51,155 bases of DNA from NCBI GenBank assembly GCA_028697015.1, contig JAQVFW010000002.1:69287-120441 (forward strand). The letters are read 5' to 3'. Position 1 is the first letter of the stretch, and each line of letters opens with the position of its first letter. The stretch is from Candidatus Paceibacterota bacterium (GTDB lineage Bacteria > Patescibacteriota > Minisyncoccia > Minisyncoccales > GWA2-38-27). Shown piece after piece: positions 35,678 to 46,721 of this stretch. The translations under genes and the position numbers were made by a program. Below the pieces are notes generated by a model. The model was given only the letters and a program-made list of their open reading frames with translations, was not told the DNA's origin and did no database searches.

Positions 35678-36109
35678 TTAAATACCCGCATCTCCCAATT
35701 TTGATGCAAGCTCAGCAAATTTTTCTTCTGTCTTTCCTCTATACTCGTCCCATTTTTTGTCATCCCAAATCTCAAGTCGATTGAAAAGGCCGCAAATTAC
35801 AACCTCTTTATTAAGTCCTGCATAAGATTTCAGGTAATCAGGAATAAGAACTCTGCCTAATTTATCCGTTTCGACTAAAACTGCCCCTGCCAGCATTATT
35901 CTTGCAAATCCCCTTGCTTCCACCTGGCTTGTCGGTAATTTTCCAAGCTTGTCCGACATAATCTTCCATTCTTTCTCCGTATAAACAACAAGACAGTTTT
36001 CAAGACCTTTTGTAATTATTAAAGAACGGCCAAGCCCTTTTCTGAACTTTGAAGGAAGAGCCAGGCGCTTCTTGGCATCTATCGTATATTTATATTCTCC
36101 TATGAACAT
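35678..36109 (-). CDS. mraZ: Transcriptional regulator MraZ
   Basis: A 143-residue protein with two AbrB-like MraZ repeats: FIGEYKYTIDAKKRLALPSKFRKGLG and GAVLVETDKLGRVLIPDYLKSYAGL, the second with its DxxGR signature. MraZ forms ring oligomers that bind tandem TGGGN repeats at the dcw promoter. Three such repeats are present just upstream. It is the first gene of the division unit. Confidence 0.96.
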   Translation of the reverse strand: MFIGEYKYTIDAKKRLALPSKFRKGLGRSLIITKGLENCLVVYTEKEWKIMSDKLGKLPTSQVEARGFARIMLAGAVLVETDKLGRVLIPDYLKSYAGLNKEVVICGLFNRLEIWDDKKWDEYRGKTEEKFAELASKLGDAGI

Positions 36110-36260: not shown

Positions 36261-36289
36261 TTGATAAACAGAAACAACACTGATATAAT
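36261..36289 (+). promoter_or_regulatory. Promoter of the surface-protein cluster
   Basis: TTGATA (36261-36266), exactly 17 bases, TATAAT (36284-36289). Transcription would begin near 36296, only about ten bases before the ATG at 36306. This rules out the upstream in-frame ATG at 36261. Confidence 0.8.
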
Positions 36290-36305
36290 CTACAAAGAAG
36301 AAACT

Positions 36306-38726
36306 ATGGAAAATAAACTCCTAAAAAAAAGAAAATCATCTCTGAAAAGAAAGATAGGGATGATTTTCTTTTTGTCTTCTTTTTTCCTTTCTTTCAAGTT
36401 GTCTGTTTTGGCAAGACAGCTTGAGGTTGCTTACCCGGGAGGGCCAAGCACGACGGCAGTTCCTCTTGAAACATACATCGTATATATAGCAGAGCTTATC
36501 ATAAAAGGAGGCATCATTCTTGCCGGTCTTATCATTGCAATTTCCGGAGTCCAATATCTTCTTTCTTTTGGAAGCGTGGAGAAGATAATAAATGCGAGAA
36601 ATAGAATATTCGGGGCTTTTTTCGGAGTTCTTATCTTAATATCTTCATTTCTTCTTCTTAGGATTGCCGATCCAAATCTTGTTCTTTTGGAAGTTCCTTC
36701 CATTGATCCTATTCCTCCTGTTATTGTTGAAAATCCTGAAATCGACTATGAACAAATTGATCCGCCTCCTGACCCTTACAAAGGAGCGATTACAACCGAA
36801 GTTCCAATCGGAGTTTTAATCAAAAACATATTTGAATTTAACCAGTTTGAAGGAGGAGAGGGAGAAGAGCCCTATGAGGAGCCAAGAAGGATGGATAGGA
36901 TAAGGAATATTTCCTTGGAAATTAACAATTTAACAACACTTGCGCTAAGCGGAAACGAAAATGTGACGGATGCCTTGAAAAATTGTTCATGTTTTTCTTG
37001 CGATCTCAACAATATACAAACAATAATACAAAACAATACGGAAACTTTTTTATCAGGACTGAAAACAGAATATCAAAAAGGAGTAATTGAGCTGAATAAT
37101 TTAAGAAATGACATTAAAAAATTAGAAGAAGCAGAAAAGGCATTAAAAAACAACCTATCTAATAATATTATAAGCTCTGCTAAATATTATTATCTAAGAG
37201 ATATATATACCAATTGGGAAATTTCTTCCGTTTCTCTTTTTGAAGAATTGGAAGATTATGGAAGTTTCGCTTCGTTCCATTATCCGACAAGCGGAACAAG
37301 CAAAGAGGAATTTCCAACAATCGCGCTTGAAAGCAATTATAATTGGTGCAGTAAGGTACCTGTAGGAGATGCTATTGAATTATCCAAAGTAGTCGGCAAT
37401 AAAATAGCAGAACGTCTTGAAACGCTTTTGAAACTTACATTTCTTGTAATAAGCCATTCAACCGCTCTTAATACTTTTGCTCTAAGCTACAACGACGAAA
37501 TTTATAAGTACGATTCTTGCAGAGGAATAATGCCATATTACGATTCCAATTTTTCAGAATTAACCGAAAAATTTCCAGGACTGTTAAAAGGACCTTACGA
37601 CAGCGTTGAGCTTTTTAATTTATCACAACATTTGTCCCGCCTTCAAAAAGGAAAAACAAGAATAGACGAAGTATGCGATACAATATATAACAAACTATTT
37701 TACCTATACAATTGGGGTTATTTGTTATCAGGAAGCCCCTCTTGGTGGCAATATCCGAATATTCCCTATTTACCAGCATGGTTCCCCAATGGCACTTCCT
37801 TATTTATGACTACGAATCATTTTCCGTCTATAAGTATTGGTGGAGGATATCGTAATCTTTTGGTTAGCTCGTACGGAAGAGATTATGTCGCTTACATATC
37901 TAATACAAAAGACCATTACGCTTCTTTTTCCCTTCCCAGTACAAGTAGAAAATATAGTATTGTTAACTATTATTTTGATTATAATTACAGATATGATAAT
38001 TTCAATCTATTAAAATATCCTCATTATTTTAACGCTGACGGCCGCAGCGGCAATTTATGGTATGAAATATTTTCTCATTATAAAAAAAATTGGTCTTATT
38101 ATCATGACTGTGCTTCATATAATGACCCAAATAGAACATGCAGAAGCGGAACTCGCTTAGTAAGTATTCCTTATTCAATATCTCGATTATCTTCAGAAAG
38201 GCCAAATCCAGCGGTAATGTACTCATTATATTTTGAGCCGTCTCTTTCTTCTTTCTTAATCGATGATTTTACAAACGATTTGTGCGGAAACTTTAAGTAT
38301 TACATTGATTTTTATTCCGGATTATACGAAAATCCCCAAGAAATTTATAATTTATGTGGATTTGAAGATCCAAATGCATTATTAAATCAATTATGTCCCC
38401 AGACAAGCATACCTATTCTTTCAAGTAAAAAGGAACACTCAACTCTTGCTGATTCTTCTGTTTTTCCTTCTTTTAGTACTATAACAGCATTTCCCTATCA
38501 TAATAGAAGTTATTATCAACTAAGCTCGAATAAAGATAAAAAAGAATCATCATTGTCCAAATTTCAGAAAGCACTTTCTTCTTCTGTGCCAGTTGCTCTT
38601 GCTCAAGGACCAATCACAGGATTCAGCGGTCCTTATATTTACCGTCCAACTTCTTGGAGCGCTAATTTTTCCACATGGATAGTTGTAACTCCCTCCCAAA
38701 ATGTATTAAGTATGGGCTATATTTAG
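36306..38726 (+). CDS. Membrane-anchored giant surface protein, 5' part up to an in-frame TAG
   Basis: 806 residues to a TAG at 38724. There is a signal anchor (residues 17-36), then YPGGPSTT, two hydrophobic helices (about 56-80 and 100-120) with a basic loop containing NARNRIFGAFFG, the layout of VirB2/TrbC-type pilin domains. Then come a Pro-rich linker, a Cys-containing coiled-coil region (NCSCFSCDLNN; LRNDIKKLEEAEKALKNN) and a long Tyr/Ser/Asn-rich extracellular region. The reading frame continues without another stop to 40253, and the TAG falls inside a fibronectin-III-like domain. The original protein was therefore probably about 1,315 residues. Start set by the promoter at 36261-36289. 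Surface attachment or a secretion-linked role is inferred. Confidence 0.75.
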   Translation: MENKLLKKRKSSLKRKIGMIFFLSSFFLSFKLSVLARQLEVAYPGGPSTTAVPLETYIVYIAELIIKGGIILAGLIIAISGVQYLLSFGSVEKIINARNRIFGAFFGVLILISSFLLLRIADPNLVLLEVPSIDPIPPVIVENPEIDYEQIDPPPDPYKGAITTEVPIGVLIKNIFEFNQFEGGEGEEPYEEPRRMDRIRNISLEINNLTTLALSGNENVTDALKNCSCFSCDLNNIQTIIQNNTETFLSGLKTEYQKGVIELNNLRNDIKKLEEAEKALKNNLSNNIISSAKYYYLRDIYTNWEISSVSLFEELEDYGSFASFHYPTSGTSKEEFPTIALESNYNWCSKVPVGDAIELSKVVGNKIAERLETLLKLTFLVISHSTALNTFALSYNDEIYKYDSCRGIMPYYDSNFSELTEKFPGLLKGPYDSVELFNLSQHLSRLQKGKTRIDEVCDTIYNKLFYLYNWGYLLSGSPSWWQYPNIPYLPAWFPNGTSLFMTTNHFPSISIGGGYRNLLVSSYGRDYVAYISNTKDHYASFSLPSTSRKYSIVNYYFDYNYRYDNFNLLKYPHYFNADGRSGNLWYEIFSHYKKNWSYYHDCASYNDPNRTCRSGTRLVSIPYSISRLSSERPNPAVMYSLYFEPSLSSFLIDDFTNDLCGNFKYYIDFYSGLYENPQEIYNLCGFEDPNALLNQLCPQTSIPILSSKKEHSTLADSSVFPSFSTITAFPYHNRSYYQLSSNKDKKESSLSKFQKALSSSVPVALAQGPITGFSGPYIYRPTSWSANFSTWIVVTPSQNVLSMGYI

Positions 38727-40253
38727 GGAGAAACAGATCTTTCTTATGATTGCTCGGTAGGAGATACAATAGAACTTGGCACAAATCTTTATGGATCAAC
38801 ATTCTCTATACATTATGGAGTTCAAGATCTTCCCTCTGACGGAATTTTCTTTGTTAAAGCTTATGTTACAAATTCAGAAGGAACAACGGAAAGTCCTTGC
38901 TATTACTTTTATACACCTACATTAATGGTTGCAACTGGTATCCCTAAAATTACCAGCAGTTCAACGGCTATTGTTTTTGGGTCTGCTATTCCCCAAGGAG
39001 ATGGCGCCATTGCCAATGTAGGATTTAAGTGGCGCGAAGAGGAATCGGAAGATTGGAATGATGTAAACAGCAGCACGGCGACAGGGACAGGATTTACGGT
39101 AAATATTTCTGAATCAGGTTTTTGGACATTCCAATATTTATTAACGGGACTTTCTCCAAACACAAACCATCGTGTTGGATCATATGCAACAGTTGAAAGA
39201 ACAGGAAGAACTGTTGGAGGCGGATCCGTTACTTTTTTTACCGAATCAAGACCACCAATAGTTAATACCGGAGGACCAGCAACTCCTCTTATAGAATCGG
39301 CTTTTCTTTATGGAAATGCTTCATCAATAAGATTTCCTCTTAATATGTATTTTACTTGGTATCAATCAAATGATTGTTCAGGAGATGAAAATTATCTGCA
39401 TTTTTCAGATATTCCTTCGACAATATATTTGTATCCCACCATAAATATCACATATTATTACAATACCTTATTAACAAATCTTATTCCAAAAGCTCCTTTC
39501 TCTTACAAGGCATGTGCTACAAATGTGGATGGAACAACTTGCGGTTCCTGTTCTTCTTCACTTGGCCCCTCTAATATACCTGCCCTTGAAAAATTAAAGA
39601 TGCCTGAAAATCATATCGTAGATGAAGGAATGCTTGATGTAATATTTTTCGGCTCCGAAGAAGAATACGGAATAATTTCTCCCTCCGAATCTGTAAAAAA
39701 ACCCTTAGGATTTGAGAATATAGGACTGCTTTACATAATTGATAATATTCTTCCCGATTTTAAAACCTTTTTAAAAGAAATGGTTGAAAAGCCAATGGAA
39801 TCCTGTATTCCAAAAGAAGAAGAAATTTCTGACTTAATAACATGTGCAAGAAGCCGTTATTTTTTAAGTGAAACAGGATTAATTTTAAGCAGTAATCAAT
39901 GTAAATCCCCAAGGACAGATAACCTTTTGCATAGTTTTTTTACCAGAGAAACATTCGGAATTTTTAAACATACCGAGTCCTTCTCTCCCTGCTCTGTTCA
40001 ATGCGGATTTTCCAAGTTTTTCAGAGGTAAGGAAACGGGAGAAGAAGAAAAAGGATACAAATATTTATATACCTATTATGATTCTTATGAAGGAGAAACT
40101 GCAGATTTAACATTAAGCAAAAATTATCAAAATTGTCTTAGAAAATGCTTAGACCGTGAAAGTTACTATACAGATGGCACGCCGGTTCTTTCCACTTATG
40201 AAAACGAGCTGAATTTTTTCTGCTGTCAAAAAGCACCCGGATCATCATATTAA
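38727..40253 (+). pseudogene. 3' part of the amber-split surface protein
   Basis: The frame is identical to that of the upstream gene. GETDLSYDCSVGDTIELG follows the TAG directly and continues as an FN3-like domain (FFVKAYVTNSEGTTESPCYYFY), a second such domain (GLSPNTNHRVGSYATVE), a third ending SYKACATNVDGTTCG, and a Cys-rich C-terminal region (CSVQCGFSKFF, NCLRKCLDRES, NFFCCQKAPGSSY). The first ATG available for independent translation is at 38925, which would remove half a domain and lacks a Shine-Dalgarno site or signal sequence. Treating this as a remnant, or as a readthrough product, is more likely than a separate gene. Confidence 0.7.
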
Positions 40254-40295
40254 AAAATGTATTTAATAAAATAAATTTACTTTCTTAAAAATTAA

Positions 40296-40907
40296 ATGAA
40301 AAAAAAGCTTAAAAAACAATTTATCTTTCTTCTTATTCTTTTCATGTTTTTTTTATTTACTTTTGCCTTTGGAAGAGAGCTGGAAATAGATTATCCTGAG
40401 ATAAGCGGAATATCTCCTCAAAATACTGAAACACCGGTTTATAGCTACTTTTTGTATATCTTCTCTTTTGTGGTTTATGTCGTCGGACTTGTTGCCCTTT
40501 TAGCTCTTATCCTTGCTGGATTAAAATATTTAACCTCCATGGGAAAATCCGAATCAAAAGAAGCAAAAGAAAGATTTTTGAGAGTTTTTTTGGGAGTTCT
40601 TATTATTCTTTCTTCTTTTCTAGTTTTAAACACAATATCCCCCTCTTTTGTTGAGCTGGAGCTTGACGATTTAGGTTCCATACCTCCAATTTCTATAGAG
40701 CTTCCTGAAATTCCCCCAGTTGACTACGGACCAATTGTTTATTCTCCTGAAGTCCTTGATCTTCTTGAAAGGATAGATAATCTATCAAGAAAAATTAAAA
40801 TAGAATCAGTAGAGGCATCGGAAATAGTAAACAACCTAAGAGACGCTACTGAATTTTGCAGCTGCAGCAAGGGACAATCCCTTTGTTCCAGCTACCAAGA
40901 AGAATAA
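40296..40907 (+). CDS. VirB2/TrbC-like membrane-anchor protein (paralogue of the 36.3-kb N-terminus)
   Basis: A 203-residue protein with a signal anchor (8-26), ELEIDYPEISG, two membrane helices (about 52-78 and 94-113) and a basic loop (KSESKEAKERFLRVFLGVLIILSSFLVLN). This parallels the N-terminus of the previous gene: YP motif, helix pair, FGVLILISSFLLL, then a Pro-rich linker with IPP. It ends in a Cys-rich tail (EFCSCSKGQSLCSSY) matching the NCSCFSC segment there. The difference is that it stops here and a second polypeptide carries the large Cys-rich part. Confidence 0.75.
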   Translation: MKKKLKKQFIFLLILFMFFLFTFAFGRELEIDYPEISGISPQNTETPVYSYFLYIFSFVVYVVGLVALLALILAGLKYLTSMGKSESKEAKERFLRVFLGVLIILSSFLVLNTISPSFVELELDDLGSIPPISIELPEIPPVDYGPIVYSPEVLDLLERIDNLSRKIKIESVEASEIVNNLRDATEFCSCSKGQSLCSSYQEE

Positions 40908-40912
40908 AAAAA

Positions 40913-43021
40913 ATGAATAAAATCAGAAATAATATAAAAATAATTTTGATTACGATATCTGTTTTTTTAATTTTTCTTTTTTCGGGAAACTTTGATCAAA
41001 TATTAAAAGAAGGTATCTTTTTTCCCAATTTTAAAATATTTTTCCCGGTCTATGGACAAGAAGAGTCAATATTCTCTTCTGATCTTTTTTTAAGCATTCC
41101 TTCAATAAACAACATTTCCTGTCTTATTGCCGATGAAGATAAAATTTGCCCTCCCTACAAGAATATAGATTTTAAAGTATATCAAGATTTGGTCAGTTCC
41201 AAGATAGATACAATATCTTATTATAAAAATATGGCCTTGAAGGAAGAAAAAGACCTTAGTCAAAGCATCAAAGCTATAGAAGCAAAAATCGCCTGGATTT
41301 TTGAAATAACGGAAAGAATTCAATCATATATAGAAGAACAAGAAGAGGGATTTGAAGAAACCCAGCCTGCTGTTCTTCTTGGAGAATTTCTGGAAGTTCT
41401 AAGAAAAGAAAGAGAATTCAAGGAAAAGGAAAAACAAACTAAAGTAAATATTCTCCCGCTTTTAGAATCACTGTCTTCCAGCACTTCATCTGCTCTTGAA
41501 CCGCTAAAAAACATACTAAATTTTTCAAAGCGGTGTTATACAGATTCAAGCTCTATATGCTATTCAAGCTGTGAATCTAATTGTGAAGAAGGAACTACTG
41601 AAAATTTCAATTGTTTCTATAGTGGCGACTGTACAGGAGGAAATCCCTGCCAATATGCCATTCCCGAAATGGAAAACCAAGTTCAATCATTAAATCCGAT
41701 TTGGAACGATATAGCCGGAGAAAGATGCCAGGAAACAGTTTATAACGTCCGCATTCATAAAGATATAAAAGAATATTTTAATGCCTATATTATAACAAGT
41801 CCGTCACTTTATTATGACATACGCCCTTATTCAAGATATATTTCTTTTCCTATAAATGAAGACGTTTGCGGAAAACTCCGCTTATTATGTGAAAAATATC
41901 CCGATGCAGGATTTTGCCAAATTTATCCCTTCGAAGAAGAAAATTTTATCAATTTTTGTCTTCTCTATCCAAATGAATCATTTTGTAAAATAGGACTCCC
42001 TCCTTATTTTCCTTATAATGTTCCAAGTAAGTTAAGAAGCGCATGTATAGAAACTATAAACAGCTGGTTTATATGCAACCCTTATCCAGTTGATGCTGTA
42101 AATTTCTTCGATGTTGATGATTCAGATCTATGGCAAGGAGTACATCCAACTTCAGGGCCTTATGGCGGATTATGCGGAAAATATTTGTCTGCAAAATTTT
42201 GTTCTTATCCAGATGATTTTCAAACTCGCTGCGGAATATCCCCTCTTTATGAATATTCTAATGTTTGTAAATATCCATTTAGAGAATTTGAAAAGTGCGG
42301 ATTTGAATATTTTTATTATTCCGAGAAATGCTCTATTCCCGACAATCCTAGAAGCATAATGGCAAATGCAGTAAAGAAAAAAGACCCTTGCCTTGTTTGC
42401 AATCAATATTCATATAATTATTTAAATAATTTAAGATTAAATACAATATATGGTGGCAGTTCCCTATGGCTTGGAGGAATTTTTGGAGAAGAATGCGAAG
42501 CAGTCCGATTTTTGTGCGAAACTCTTTCAGACCCAAATGGAAATTTTCAAGAAGACACTACAAATAGAGATTTCTATAATCAGTATATTGCAGATCTTTG
42601 CGTCCAATATCCATTTAATGGATTTACCAAATCACAATGCCGAAATGTATATTCTCTCATTCATAATAGAATTAAAAATCCCTTTCAAGGGTTTCAGACT
42701 TTTTATAGCGAACAGGCAGGATTCCGGCTTCTCTATGAATCTTTTTGCTGGCTTTCTTATTATGATAAAAAATGTCATGAAAGAGAAATAGAAGAAATAG
42801 TAGAAGAATTGGAAGGAGGAGGAAAAACGGGAGAGATATTAAAAGAAGTAAAAAAACTTGGTTTCAATTGTAAATTTGAAGAATTAAAACATCTTTATTA
42901 CACTAAAACCGAAGAGTTTTGCACAAAATGCGAAGAACTTTCAAATGAATTTGAAATTTGCAAAAAAACAGATGACTATGTCTATCTAAGGACAAAATGC
43001 GAAAGTATTTGCCAAAATTAG
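40913..43021 (+). CDS. Large cysteine-rich exported protein
   Basis: About 702 residues from the ATG at 40913, five bases after the previous stop. A signal anchor (KIILITISVFLIFLF) is followed by a coiled coil (KEEKDLSQSIKAIEAKIAWIFEITERIQSYIEEQ). A long region then carries dozens of Cys, often in pairs spaced through aromatic repeats such as LRLLCEKYPDAGFCQIYPF and FINFCLLYPNESFC. A second coiled coil and CTKCEELSNEFEICKK lie near the end. Cys content implies an oxidised extracellular fold. It appears to be the functional equivalent of the C-terminal portion of the split protein upstream. No known family was recognised. Confidence 0.75.
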   Translation: MNKIRNNIKIILITISVFLIFLFSGNFDQILKEGIFFPNFKIFFPVYGQEESIFSSDLFLSIPSINNISCLIADEDKICPPYKNIDFKVYQDLVSSKIDTISYYKNMALKEEKDLSQSIKAIEAKIAWIFEITERIQSYIEEQEEGFEETQPAVLLGEFLEVLRKEREFKEKEKQTKVNILPLLESLSSSTSSALEPLKNILNFSKRCYTDSSSICYSSCESNCEEGTTENFNCFYSGDCTGGNPCQYAIPEMENQVQSLNPIWNDIAGERCQETVYNVRIHKDIKEYFNAYIITSPSLYYDIRPYSRYISFPINEDVCGKLRLLCEKYPDAGFCQIYPFEEENFINFCLLYPNESFCKIGLPPYFPYNVPSKLRSACIETINSWFICNPYPVDAVNFFDVDDSDLWQGVHPTSGPYGGLCGKYLSAKFCSYPDDFQTRCGISPLYEYSNVCKYPFREFEKCGFEYFYYSEKCSIPDNPRSIMANAVKKKDPCLVCNQYSYNYLNNLRLNTIYGGSSLWLGGIFGEECEAVRFLCETLSDPNGNFQEDTTNRDFYNQYIADLCVQYPFNGFTKSQCRNVYSLIHNRIKNPFQGFQTFYSEQAGFRLLYESFCWLSYYDKKCHEREIEEIVEELEGGGKTGEILKEVKKLGFNCKFEELKHLYYTKTEEFCTKCEELSNEFEICKKTDDYVYLRTKCESICQN

Positions 43022-43929: not shown

Positions 43930-46341
43930 TCAGCTTATTTTTAGTTGAAAGTCCTCCGGATTGATTTCAACTTTGTTTCCCTTTTGAAGAGAACCCAAAA
44001 GAACGGCTTCCGCCAGATTATTTTCTATCTTTTCTTGAATAACTCTTCTCATTTCTCTTGCTCCAAATTTTGGGTCATAGCTAAGTTCCACTATTTTCTC
44101 TTTCAACTCCTCTGTTACGAAAAGCTCAATCCCCTTCTTCTTAAGATTATCTTTAAGCGAAGAAAGAATAAGATTTGATATTTCTATTAAGTTTTCCTTA
44201 CTAAGCGGATGAAATACCACTGCTTTGTCAAAACGGTTAATAAACTCTGGCTTAAAAATACCTGTTTTAAAAACATAAGTAAGAAGCATTTCTTTCACCT
44301 TTTCCCATGGATTCTTATTTTCAATAGCATCCAAAATTATCTGATATCCGGCATTGCTTGTCGCAATGATTATCGTATTTTTAAAATCAACTTTTCTTTC
44401 AAATCCGTCCGTAATATTTCCTTCATCCAAGACCTGAAGAAAAAGGTTAAGAATATTTGGATGGGCTTTTTCAAGCTCATCCAGAAGAAGGAGTGAAAAA
44501 GGGCTTTCCTTTACGGGCGAAGTAAGCATTCCTGTTTCTTCTTTCCCCCCGATAAGACGAGATACGTCGCTTACGTTCTGAAACTCCGACATATCAAGAC
44601 GGATTATCCTTTTTTCAGAACCAAAGTAAATATCTGCCAGAGCTTTTGCCGTCTCTGTTTTTCCAACTCCAGTAGGCCCTAAAAAGAGAAAGCTTCCCAT
44701 AGGGCCCTTTCTTGTCTTTATCTCCGCCCTTGCCCTTCTAAGAGAAGTTGATATTTCCATCACCGCCTCTTTTTGGTTTATTATCCTTTCATGAATAAGA
44801 TTTTCAAGATTAAGAAGAATTTCTTTTTCTTTTTCCGCTACTTCTCCTACAGGAATATCCGTCTTTCTGCTTATAACGCTTGCAACATGACTTTTTAAAA
44901 CCATTTTACCCTTTCCTCCTTTTGAAACAAATAAAACAACCTCTTCTAAGATTTCTATCCCCTTCTCGGGAAAAAACAATGTCGGAAGATATTTATCGCT
45001 TAAGTCAACTATTTCCTTTAGGGCAAGATATGAAACAAAAACTTTATTTTTTCTTTCGTAATAAGGAACAAGCGTCTGAAGAATTTTAAGGGTCTGCTGT
45101 TTACCAACTTCTGAAATTTCTATTTTTTCAAAAAGATTAAGAAAAGATGCATTTTTTTCTATTCTTTCATGAAGCCCCGTATAATCTGTAATTCCTATAA
45201 ATTTAAAATCTGGCATATTTAAAAAAGGAGCAACAATTCCGGTAACATCAACTGTTCCAAGTTTATCCTCTCCTCCGACAAATTCATGAATATTATTAAC
45301 AACAAGAATAATATCCCCGGCAGAGGCGGCTTCTTTAAAAATTTTATCCAAAGTAAACTCAACCTGCTCTTTATTTTGAATTCTTGCAAGAAGGGATTCC
45401 ATATCAACTTCTATCACCCTTTTATAATTAATTTCTTCAAGCCCCTTTCCAAAAAGAGATCTTTGGGCAAGATTATAAACAACACTTTTTCTTCCCGATC
45501 CAGGATTTCCAACAATAAGGGCATTGCTTCTTTGGCTTCTCAAAAGAGCTCTTTCTAAAATATCCGCTTCTTCTTTATGGGAAATAAATTCCACATATCT
45601 TCTGATCTGTTCTGTAATATCAATTCCGTAAGTATCAAGTGTAAGAGAATATCCGGAAATCCATCTTTTCCCCAAGGCCCCTTTTGTCCAAAAAAGATCT
45701 TTTCTCTTTTCTTTAAGCAGGGAAAGCCAGAAAAAAACACTCTCAATATCTTCGCTGGAAATATCCATCAGAACAGCCATTTTATTAAGAGAACTGTTGT
45801 CTAAAAAAGATGCCAAAAGAACATCTTGTCCTTCAATTATTTCTCTTCCTTTTCTTTTTGCAATATCTTTTGAAAGTTCAAGCAAAGAAAAAAGTTCCTT
45901 CTCCTTTTCCTCACTCATTTCTCTTTTAAGAGTTTCCATTACTTTTTTAGGAGAAAGAAGAATCCGATAAAAAATAAAGCTAAGATCGCTGTATTCTTTT
46001 AAAATAAAATAAAGAAGGGCGCTTGGATTTTTCGGTTTTTTTCTTAAAAAAATCTTAACAAGGTCAAACTCTAGAAAATCTGCCAAGTTATCCGTTTCTT
46101 TTTTTAGAACCGTCGTTTTTAGTTTTTCCGTTCTAAAATGCCCTATATTTTCAAGAAAAAGAAAAATAAGGAAGAAGAGCGTGAAAAAACCCAAAAAGCG
46201 CTCGTTTTCAAGATAAAGAGCAAAAGCGCCAAAAACAGCACTGGCAAGAAGAAAAAAAGGAGAAAGAAAAACAACTGAGGCAATAATTTTATCCCACTTT
46301 ATCATTCTGCCGGCATAAGTTTTTTGGGGTTCAAAAATCAT
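43930..46341 (-). CDS. Membrane-tethered Clp-like double AAA+ ATPase
   Basis: About 803 residues. Two N-terminal membrane helices (about 20-42 and 48-66) are followed by a Clp N-domain-like helical region (about 100-200). NBD1 is degenerate: GNPGSGRKS at 288-296 with an extra residue before Lys, and VVNNIHEF instead of a Walker B DE pair. NBD2 is canonical: LGPTGVGKTET at 554-564, LLLLDELEKAH at 617-627, ATSNAG sensor 1, Arg finger in INRFD, GAREMRRVIQ sensor 2. There is no IGF/IGL-like ClpP loop, so it probably does not feed ClpP. The start at 46341 overlaps the upstream gene's TGA (ATGA), indicating coupling. A membrane-protein remodelling role is inferred. Confidence 0.88.
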   Translation of the reverse strand: MIFEPQKTYAGRMIKWDKIIASVVFLSPFFLLASAVFGAFALYLENERFLGFFTLFFLIFLFLENIGHFRTEKLKTTVLKKETDNLADFLEFDLVKIFLRKKPKNPSALLYFILKEYSDLSFIFYRILLSPKKVMETLKREMSEEKEKELFSLLELSKDIAKRKGREIIEGQDVLLASFLDNSSLNKMAVLMDISSEDIESVFFWLSLLKEKRKDLFWTKGALGKRWISGYSLTLDTYGIDITEQIRRYVEFISHKEEADILERALLRSQRSNALIVGNPGSGRKSVVYNLAQRSLFGKGLEEINYKRVIEVDMESLLARIQNKEQVEFTLDKIFKEAASAGDIILVVNNIHEFVGGEDKLGTVDVTGIVAPFLNMPDFKFIGITDYTGLHERIEKNASFLNLFEKIEISEVGKQQTLKILQTLVPYYERKNKVFVSYLALKEIVDLSDKYLPTLFFPEKGIEILEEVVLFVSKGGKGKMVLKSHVASVISRKTDIPVGEVAEKEKEILLNLENLIHERIINQKEAVMEISTSLRRARAEIKTRKGPMGSFLFLGPTGVGKTETAKALADIYFGSEKRIIRLDMSEFQNVSDVSRLIGGKEETGMLTSPVKESPFSLLLLDELEKAHPNILNLFLQVLDEGNITDGFERKVDFKNTIIIATSNAGYQIILDAIENKNPWEKVKEMLLTYVFKTGIFKPEFINRFDKAVVFHPLSKENLIEISNLILSSLKDNLKKKGIELFVTEELKEKIVELSYDPKFGAREMRRVIQEKIENNLAEAVLLGSLQKGNKVEINPEDFQLKIS

Positions 46342-46721
46342 AATGTTAAAAAATAAATGCTCCAATAAATTCCAATTAAAAATAAAAGAGGAGAAGCAAG
46401 CCAGAATATCAATATTAAAAATCCTATGGTAAAAATAAGGAGTTCAAAAAATATTCCTATAATAAGAAAAAAGGTCCTTATAACCGCTCCTGCAACTCTT
46501 GACATAGTATTAAAAACAAACGCTTCCGCAAAGCGTTGAAAATCAATCCCCCTTCCATACCCTTGCGATATTCTTTTCCAGGGAGAAAAGAAGGTCTTGA
46601 TTAAAATAGAAATTGAAAAATACTTAAAATAGGAAACAAGATAGATTTTATAAAGACGCAGTATTTCCAAAACCTTGTCTACATAATGCCATTCCAAGTA
46701 TTTTATAAATATAGTCACCAT
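46338..46721 (-). CDS. Membrane protein partner of the Clp-like ATPase
   Basis: A 127-residue protein. An N-terminal amphipathic part (KYLEWHYVDKVLEILRLYKIYL), then SPWKRISQGYGRGIDFQRFAEAFVFNTMSR, then two or three hydrophobic helices (AVIRTFFLIIGIFFELLIFTIGFLILIFWL). The SPWKR-x-x...RGIDF element with following NTMSR looks like a conserved family motif in CPR-type genomes, though no name can be given. It is first in the operon, overlapping the ATPase by four bases. Confidence 0.72.
   Translation of the reverse strand: MVTIFIKYLEWHYVDKVLEILRLYKIYLVSYFKYFSISILIKTFFSPWKRISQGYGRGIDFQRFAEAFVFNTMSRVAGAVIRTFFLIIGIFFELLIFTIGFLILIFWLASPLLFLIGIYWSIYFLTL

Follow-up and report, generated by a model that had tools for sequence, protein, structure and literature searches.

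Three adjacent genes (W1, W2, and W3) of a Candidatus Paceibacterota bacterium, a tiny and uncultured member of the Parcubacteria, can be recognized, from their sequences, as a displaced second copy of the exterior gene set of the type IV secretion system (T4SS) of Patescibacteria, and we consider it fairly probable that this copy presents pilin-anchored, Cys-rich arms whose most likely role would be to contact a host or neighbor cell. A previous sequence-only reading of the window, i.e., the whole stretch of 51,155 nucleotides that was analyzed, had proposed a modular surface apparatus composed of a pilus-like base and an extracellular arm, and this architecture is borne out by the association of a T4SS_pilin domain with a stalk and a Cys-rich arm, by the recurrent fusion and fission of these parts, and by their co-occurrence in relatives. 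The accompanying statement that the apparatus matched no nameable system has to be abandoned, since genes of this kind belong to the Patescibacteria T4SS, where they stand beside PrgI and VirB4 (PMC12102498). The island and its flanks are laid out as follows:

35678..36109, minus strand: mraZ, the left flank of the island
36261..36289, plus strand: promoter TTGATA-17-TATAAT with a TG before the -10 element (11 of 12 consensus positions)
36261..36911, plus strand: cassette made up of the promoter, a 5' leader, the signal, the pilin helix pair, and the Pro-rich linker, matching the contig C6 copy at 99.4% identity
36306..38726, plus strand: W1, an A-type chain of 806 aa up to a TAG (ORF reading, homology), with, in order, a signal helix, YP (aa 43), a pilin-like helix pair, a Pro linker, CSC (aa 227), a coiled coil, and an arm
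38724..38726, plus strand: in-frame TAG, inside a W1-specific insert that is absent from the intact paralogue C1
38727..40253, plus strand: continuation of the W1 frame over 508 codons, with an FN3-like stretch and the conserved Cys-rich C-terminal part
40296..40907, plus strand: W2, a B-type pilin stub of 203 aa (PF18895 match, AlphaFold), with a signal helix, RELEIDYP, a helix pair (48-80/86-114), a Pro linker, and CSC (aa 188)
40913..43021, plus strand: W3, the B-type arm as a gene of its own (702 aa), with its own signal sequence, a coiled coil, and a Cys-rich exterior
43930..46365, minus strand: ClpA/B/C-like AAA ATPase, the right flank, kept in relatives

As had been noticed from the letters, both W1 and W2 begin with a signal helix, which is followed by a YP motif (at aa 43 in W1 and aa 33 in W2), here extended to R-x-L-E-x-x-YP, by a membrane hairpin of two helices, by a Pro-rich linker, and by a CSC segment (at aa 227 and 188, respectively); they are homologous from the pilin through the CSC region (BLAST, 3.7e-14), helix pairs included. 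The second module does consist of two genes five bases apart, W2 ending at 40907 and W3 starting at 40913, and W3 is indeed rich in Cys (37 residues, 5.1% of the ORF vs. a window median of 0.59%), of which 33 out of 37 are kept in its homologue C4 at an overall identity of 40%, as expected of disulfides. No oxidase of the Thioredoxin_4/DsbA-like (PF13462) or VKOR (PF07884) families was found in the genome. The proposal that the two modules are paralogous stands from pilin to CSC but does not extend directly further, as the profiles of the W1 and W3 arms gave no significant match to each other (hhalign). Because of this, we claim the kinship of these arms through relatives only, namely those that carry both types as single chains: in G004, the A-type chain A4 matches the B-type chain B4 at 3.6e-21 over pilin and arm, and at about 1e-8 over 65 columns for the proximal arm alone. 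The description of the first module as one chain was likewise right in part: a TAG ends W1 at 806 aa, but the frame stays open on to 40253. Such a run of 508 open codons has a chance of about 1e-16, and the post-TAG frame, which has LNFFCC close to its end, aligns with the C-terminal part of C1 at 41% identity (8e-68). An altered genetic code can be ruled out as the cause of this TAG, for the cysteinyl-tRNA synthetase and W3 genes also end in TAG, and a single-base assembly error may possibly account for it.

The full locus lies on contig C6 of the same genome (676 kb, 14 T4SS_pilin matches), in the order x0 - PrgI - VirB4 N-part - VirB4 - DnaJ/TM protein - C1 - C2 - C3 - C4 - C5 - C6, C7, C8 - yidC - rnpA - dnaA, where C1 is an intact homologue of W1 (1174 aa), C2 a homologue of W2, C4 a homologue of W3 with its own signal sequence, and where genes C6, C7, and C8 combine a pilin with another arm. 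By gene order, these exterior genes are members of a T4SS locus: VirB4 (TIGR00929, 1.5e-38, at C6:19901-21457) is directly upstream of them and PrgI/VirB3 (PF12666, 34.7 bits for a cut-off of 27) is found beside VirB4. The genome also has a VirD4-like match (PF02534) and, for the one relaxase family searched (PF03432), no match. The window copy has no VirB4 alongside, VirB4 being on contig C6.

Some further features of this genome can be mentioned in their own right. On contig C6, C3 (L009:12066-14519), located between the W2 and W3 homologues, harbors a very long glutamate run close to the N terminus and, after it, repeated Cys-rich units akin to the N-terminal portion of C4, and the small membrane protein encoded after VirB4 (L009:18763-19776) is fused to a DnaJ domain, a J domain that is absent in relatives (e.g., L018:13884-14288). 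On contig C10, a 350-aa ORF with four tandem T4SS_pilin domains (L010:8489-9541) sits amid an array of short pilin genes, and on contig C14 (L011:5832-10671), a LysM-M23 peptidase and a polytopic protein containing Ser/Thr-Pro repeats are grouped with a pilin-like gene, in a set that resembles a VirB1/VirB6-like group of the same T4SS.

As the arms diverge too fast for a direct search (W3, used as a query against 80 related genomes, gave one outside match), VirB4 was taken as the anchor for relatives, and the scan yielded 80 loci, nearly all of them Parcubacteria-type where named, with Candidatus Nealsonbacteria nearest and one titled Atribacteria. In the neighborhood map, the origin-proximal locus beside yidC-rnpA-dnaA recurs in relatives with the same gene order. 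The modules co-occur elsewhere, in dozens of genomes: among the 36 VirB4 loci of at least 20 kb, 34 have a pilin domain and 32 a pilin together with an arm of 100 aa or more, these arms having a median length of 285 aa (longest, 1947 aa) and a Cys content of 3.3%, versus 0.43% in other ORFs. An intein bearing a LAGLIDADG endonuclease domain (PF14890, PF14528) lies within one VirB4 gene (G007, L101:7496-10999), making an open frame of 1167 aa.

The distinction between a fused and a split module, also drawn in the sequence-only reading, proved real: in three genomes of the same family (G004, G005, and G007), the equivalent of W2 plus W3 is one chain, B (360-378 aa), found in an operon with A (the W1 type) and a third pilin type, when both copies of the window's genome have B as two genes. 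The single chain being commoner within this family, B was probably split in the window's genome. Regarding the A type, its C-terminal half, i.e., the W1-type arm from the motif C..IPIGE to the N-Y/F-Y/F-CC tail, occurs fused in 16 proteins and as a separate, signal-bearing gene at 11 loci; on a VirB4 tree of 22 of those loci (3 outgroups), the state changes at least four times between fused and separate, at least two of these changes being forced by well-supported branches. Since the parts occur sometimes as one chain and sometimes as two adjacent genes, base and arm very likely act together.

The identification of the base as a pilin lies on profiles. W2 scores 28.3 bits against T4SS_pilin (PF18895) in the genome search and 25.8 bits by hmmscan alone, for a cut-off of 26.6, and the gene C6 product, A4, and B4 reach 36.0, 29.9, and 33.9 bits; W1, with 12.3 bits, is below the cut-off and is assigned through its homology to W2. 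Against TrbC/VirB2 (PF04956), W2 falls under the cut-off of 27.9 (19.6 bits, E 0.0011). The AlphaFold model of W2 (66 sequences, mean pLDDT 79) predicts helices at 3-24 (signal) and at 48-80 and 86-114 (membrane hairpin), and that of B7, the single-chain B of G007, predicts a membrane hairpin, a helix, and a Cys-rich turn, then a 53-residue coiled-coil hairpin (pLDDT about 95) and a poorly predicted Cys-rich loop. Foldseek returned no PDB match at E <= 0.001 and no pilin among the matches listed; a bare helix hairpin being too generic to judge likeness to VirB2/TraA/TrbC by fold, the VirB2 link depends on the sequence profiles. A PDB profile search gave a chance match only (E 7.6), no adhesin domain was detected in W1-W3 with Pfam, and the later rounds of an iterated coiled-coil profile were disregarded because such profiles tend to drift on coiled coils. 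Between genomes, the arm is less conserved than the helix pair in the A and T types, and the near-invariant pilin positions sit in and around the hairpin. Positive residues are read both in the loop and ahead of the first helix, which, under the established positive-inside rule, puts the arm on the outside.

On these grounds, the base would be a Sec-targeted, VirB2/T4SS_pilin-like membrane hairpin with both ends outside and the loop inside, and it would tether a coiled-coil stalk and a Cys-rich, probably disulfide-bonded arm to the secretion apparatus, or to a pilus into which it may assemble, either within the structure or at its foot. The anchoring and the exterior location of the arms are likely. 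An arm could belong to the polypeptide of its base or be secreted separately as a partner, as proposed for W3 on W2, the coiled coil and the CxC segment being what would most likely hold it in place. The arms would then most likely touch the host or a neighbor cell, replacing the adhesins usual in monoderm T4SSs; that they adhere is our guess, backed by the published absence of other adhesins (PMC12102498).

From an evolutionary perspective, the 651-bp cassette has a history of its own. It differs from the contig C6 copy at only 4 positions, and identity drops to chance on both sides: the match begins at the first base of the near-perfect promoter and ends abruptly at 36911, between the linker and the CSC segment. 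In protein terms, W1 and C1 are 99.5% identical in the cassette and 41% in the remaining chain, when W2 and C2 are 53% identical in the pilin and 55% after it; downstream of the cassette, the window and contig C6 copies have diverged to about 40-55%. This suggests that the duplication is old and that the cassette alone was recently homogenized, for which recent gene conversion would be the simplest explanation; an assembly error at the repeat might switch its flanks around but could hardly have produced the repeat itself. C7 and C8 offer a milder case of like pilin DNA (415 bp, 94.7%). Neighboring arm genes with alike pilin DNA are also seen in two other genomes (L025:18292-20429, 399 bp, 86.5%; L031:12357-13991, 291 bp, 84.5%). 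A bolder and rather improbable scheme would have a constant promoter-signal-pilin cassette copied between loci by gene conversion as the arms behind it diverge, the mraZ-side copy acting as an alternative expression or donor site; if true, host-specific arms would be presented on a T4SS pilin, in what would be a monoderm equivalent of antigenic or host-range variation.

This recent renewal of the promoter and pilin also bears on whether the window copy is a decaying duplicate, with W1 a pseudogene and the island devoid of a function of its own. We regard this as unlikely, albeit the least unlikely of the alternatives: W2 and W3 are intact, the Cys of W3 are conserved as described, and the frame of W1 remains open after a TAG that is possibly a mere assembly error, but the TAG itself, the lack of a neighboring VirB4, and the absence of the island from the same site in relatives speak for decay. 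Indeed, mraZ and the ClpC-like gene are close together, without the modules between them, in G003, G004, and G008, and the island adjoins mraZ in the window's genome only (one family, 14 genomes compared). A mobile-element origin of the island was provisionally set aside, no Pfam match to a transposase or integrase having been found among its ORFs.

Less probable still, the helix pair could be a mere double membrane anchor borrowed from pilins, and the arms general surface proteins (S-layer-like or sheath) outside the secretion machine. That these genes stay closely linked to PrgI and VirB4 throughout Parcubacteria argues against it, as do a helix pair that is better conserved than the arm in the A and T types and near-invariant positions around the hairpin, unlike what a neutral anchor would show; yet the window copy and VirB4 are on different contigs, structure comparison does not confirm a VirB2 fold, and arms of up to 1947 aa are bulky for pilus subunits. 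It is more doubtful again that the arms serve an inward-working T4SS as receptors for the uptake or docking of DNA, peptides, or other material from the host, which they would feed into it: the lack of a PF03432 relaxase and the listing of nucleic-acid uptake among candidate T4SS roles (PMC11665869) would fit, but no ligand-binding fold was recognized in Pfam or the PDB, and sequence cannot separate uptake from adhesion.

A T4SS exterior with pilin-anchored arms can be set against systems already described. The T4SS of Patescibacteria, its origin-proximal site, and the VirB2-like pilins in it have been described before (PMC12102498; review PMC12857230), and in the only species tested this T4SS proved essential (PMC11665869; PMC12102498). 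The locus of Quinonero-Coronel et al. (2025; PMC12102498), which is MPF-FATA-related, resembles ours in having VirB4, PrgI/VirB3, and VirB2-like pilins beside dnaA/rnpA, a relaxase that is usually missing, and pilin genes in arrays; in that work, VirB2-like pilins are described near virB4 as small proteins, and no adhesins are reported, whereas here most pilin domains near VirB4 bear Cys-rich arms (median 285 aa), fused or split, and a displaced second copy is also present. The essential T4SS of Southlakia epibionticum (Wang et al. 2023, as reviewed in PMC12857230) likewise has several sequence-divergent pilins, six VirB2-like ones, for one T4SS, but the review's account of it does not mention long arms such as the extracellular ones predicted here. 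The Bartonella Trw T4SS, with its variable VirB2/VirB5 copies, is comparable in its amplified, sequence-variable surface parts, proposed to bind different hosts (PMC12857230). In our case, by contrast, the variable part is the arm on the pilin, and the W1 pilin cassette is nearly identical between two copies. A cell-contact role in monoderm T4SSs has also been proposed for the PrgB-type adhesins of conjugation systems, which are surface adhesins and are not known as pilin fusions. None has been found in Patescibacteria (PMC12102498). In the literature examined on the Patescibacteria T4SS, we found no description of pilin-anchored arms or of pilin-arm fusions.

The recurrent fusion and fission of base and arm predicts which chains bind each other. 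Overall, the large pilin-borne arms found beside VirB4 in most of the Parcubacteria loci examined constitute a concrete candidate for a contact device, and through the arm proteins one could directly test by what means these epibionts cling to their hosts or feed from them.
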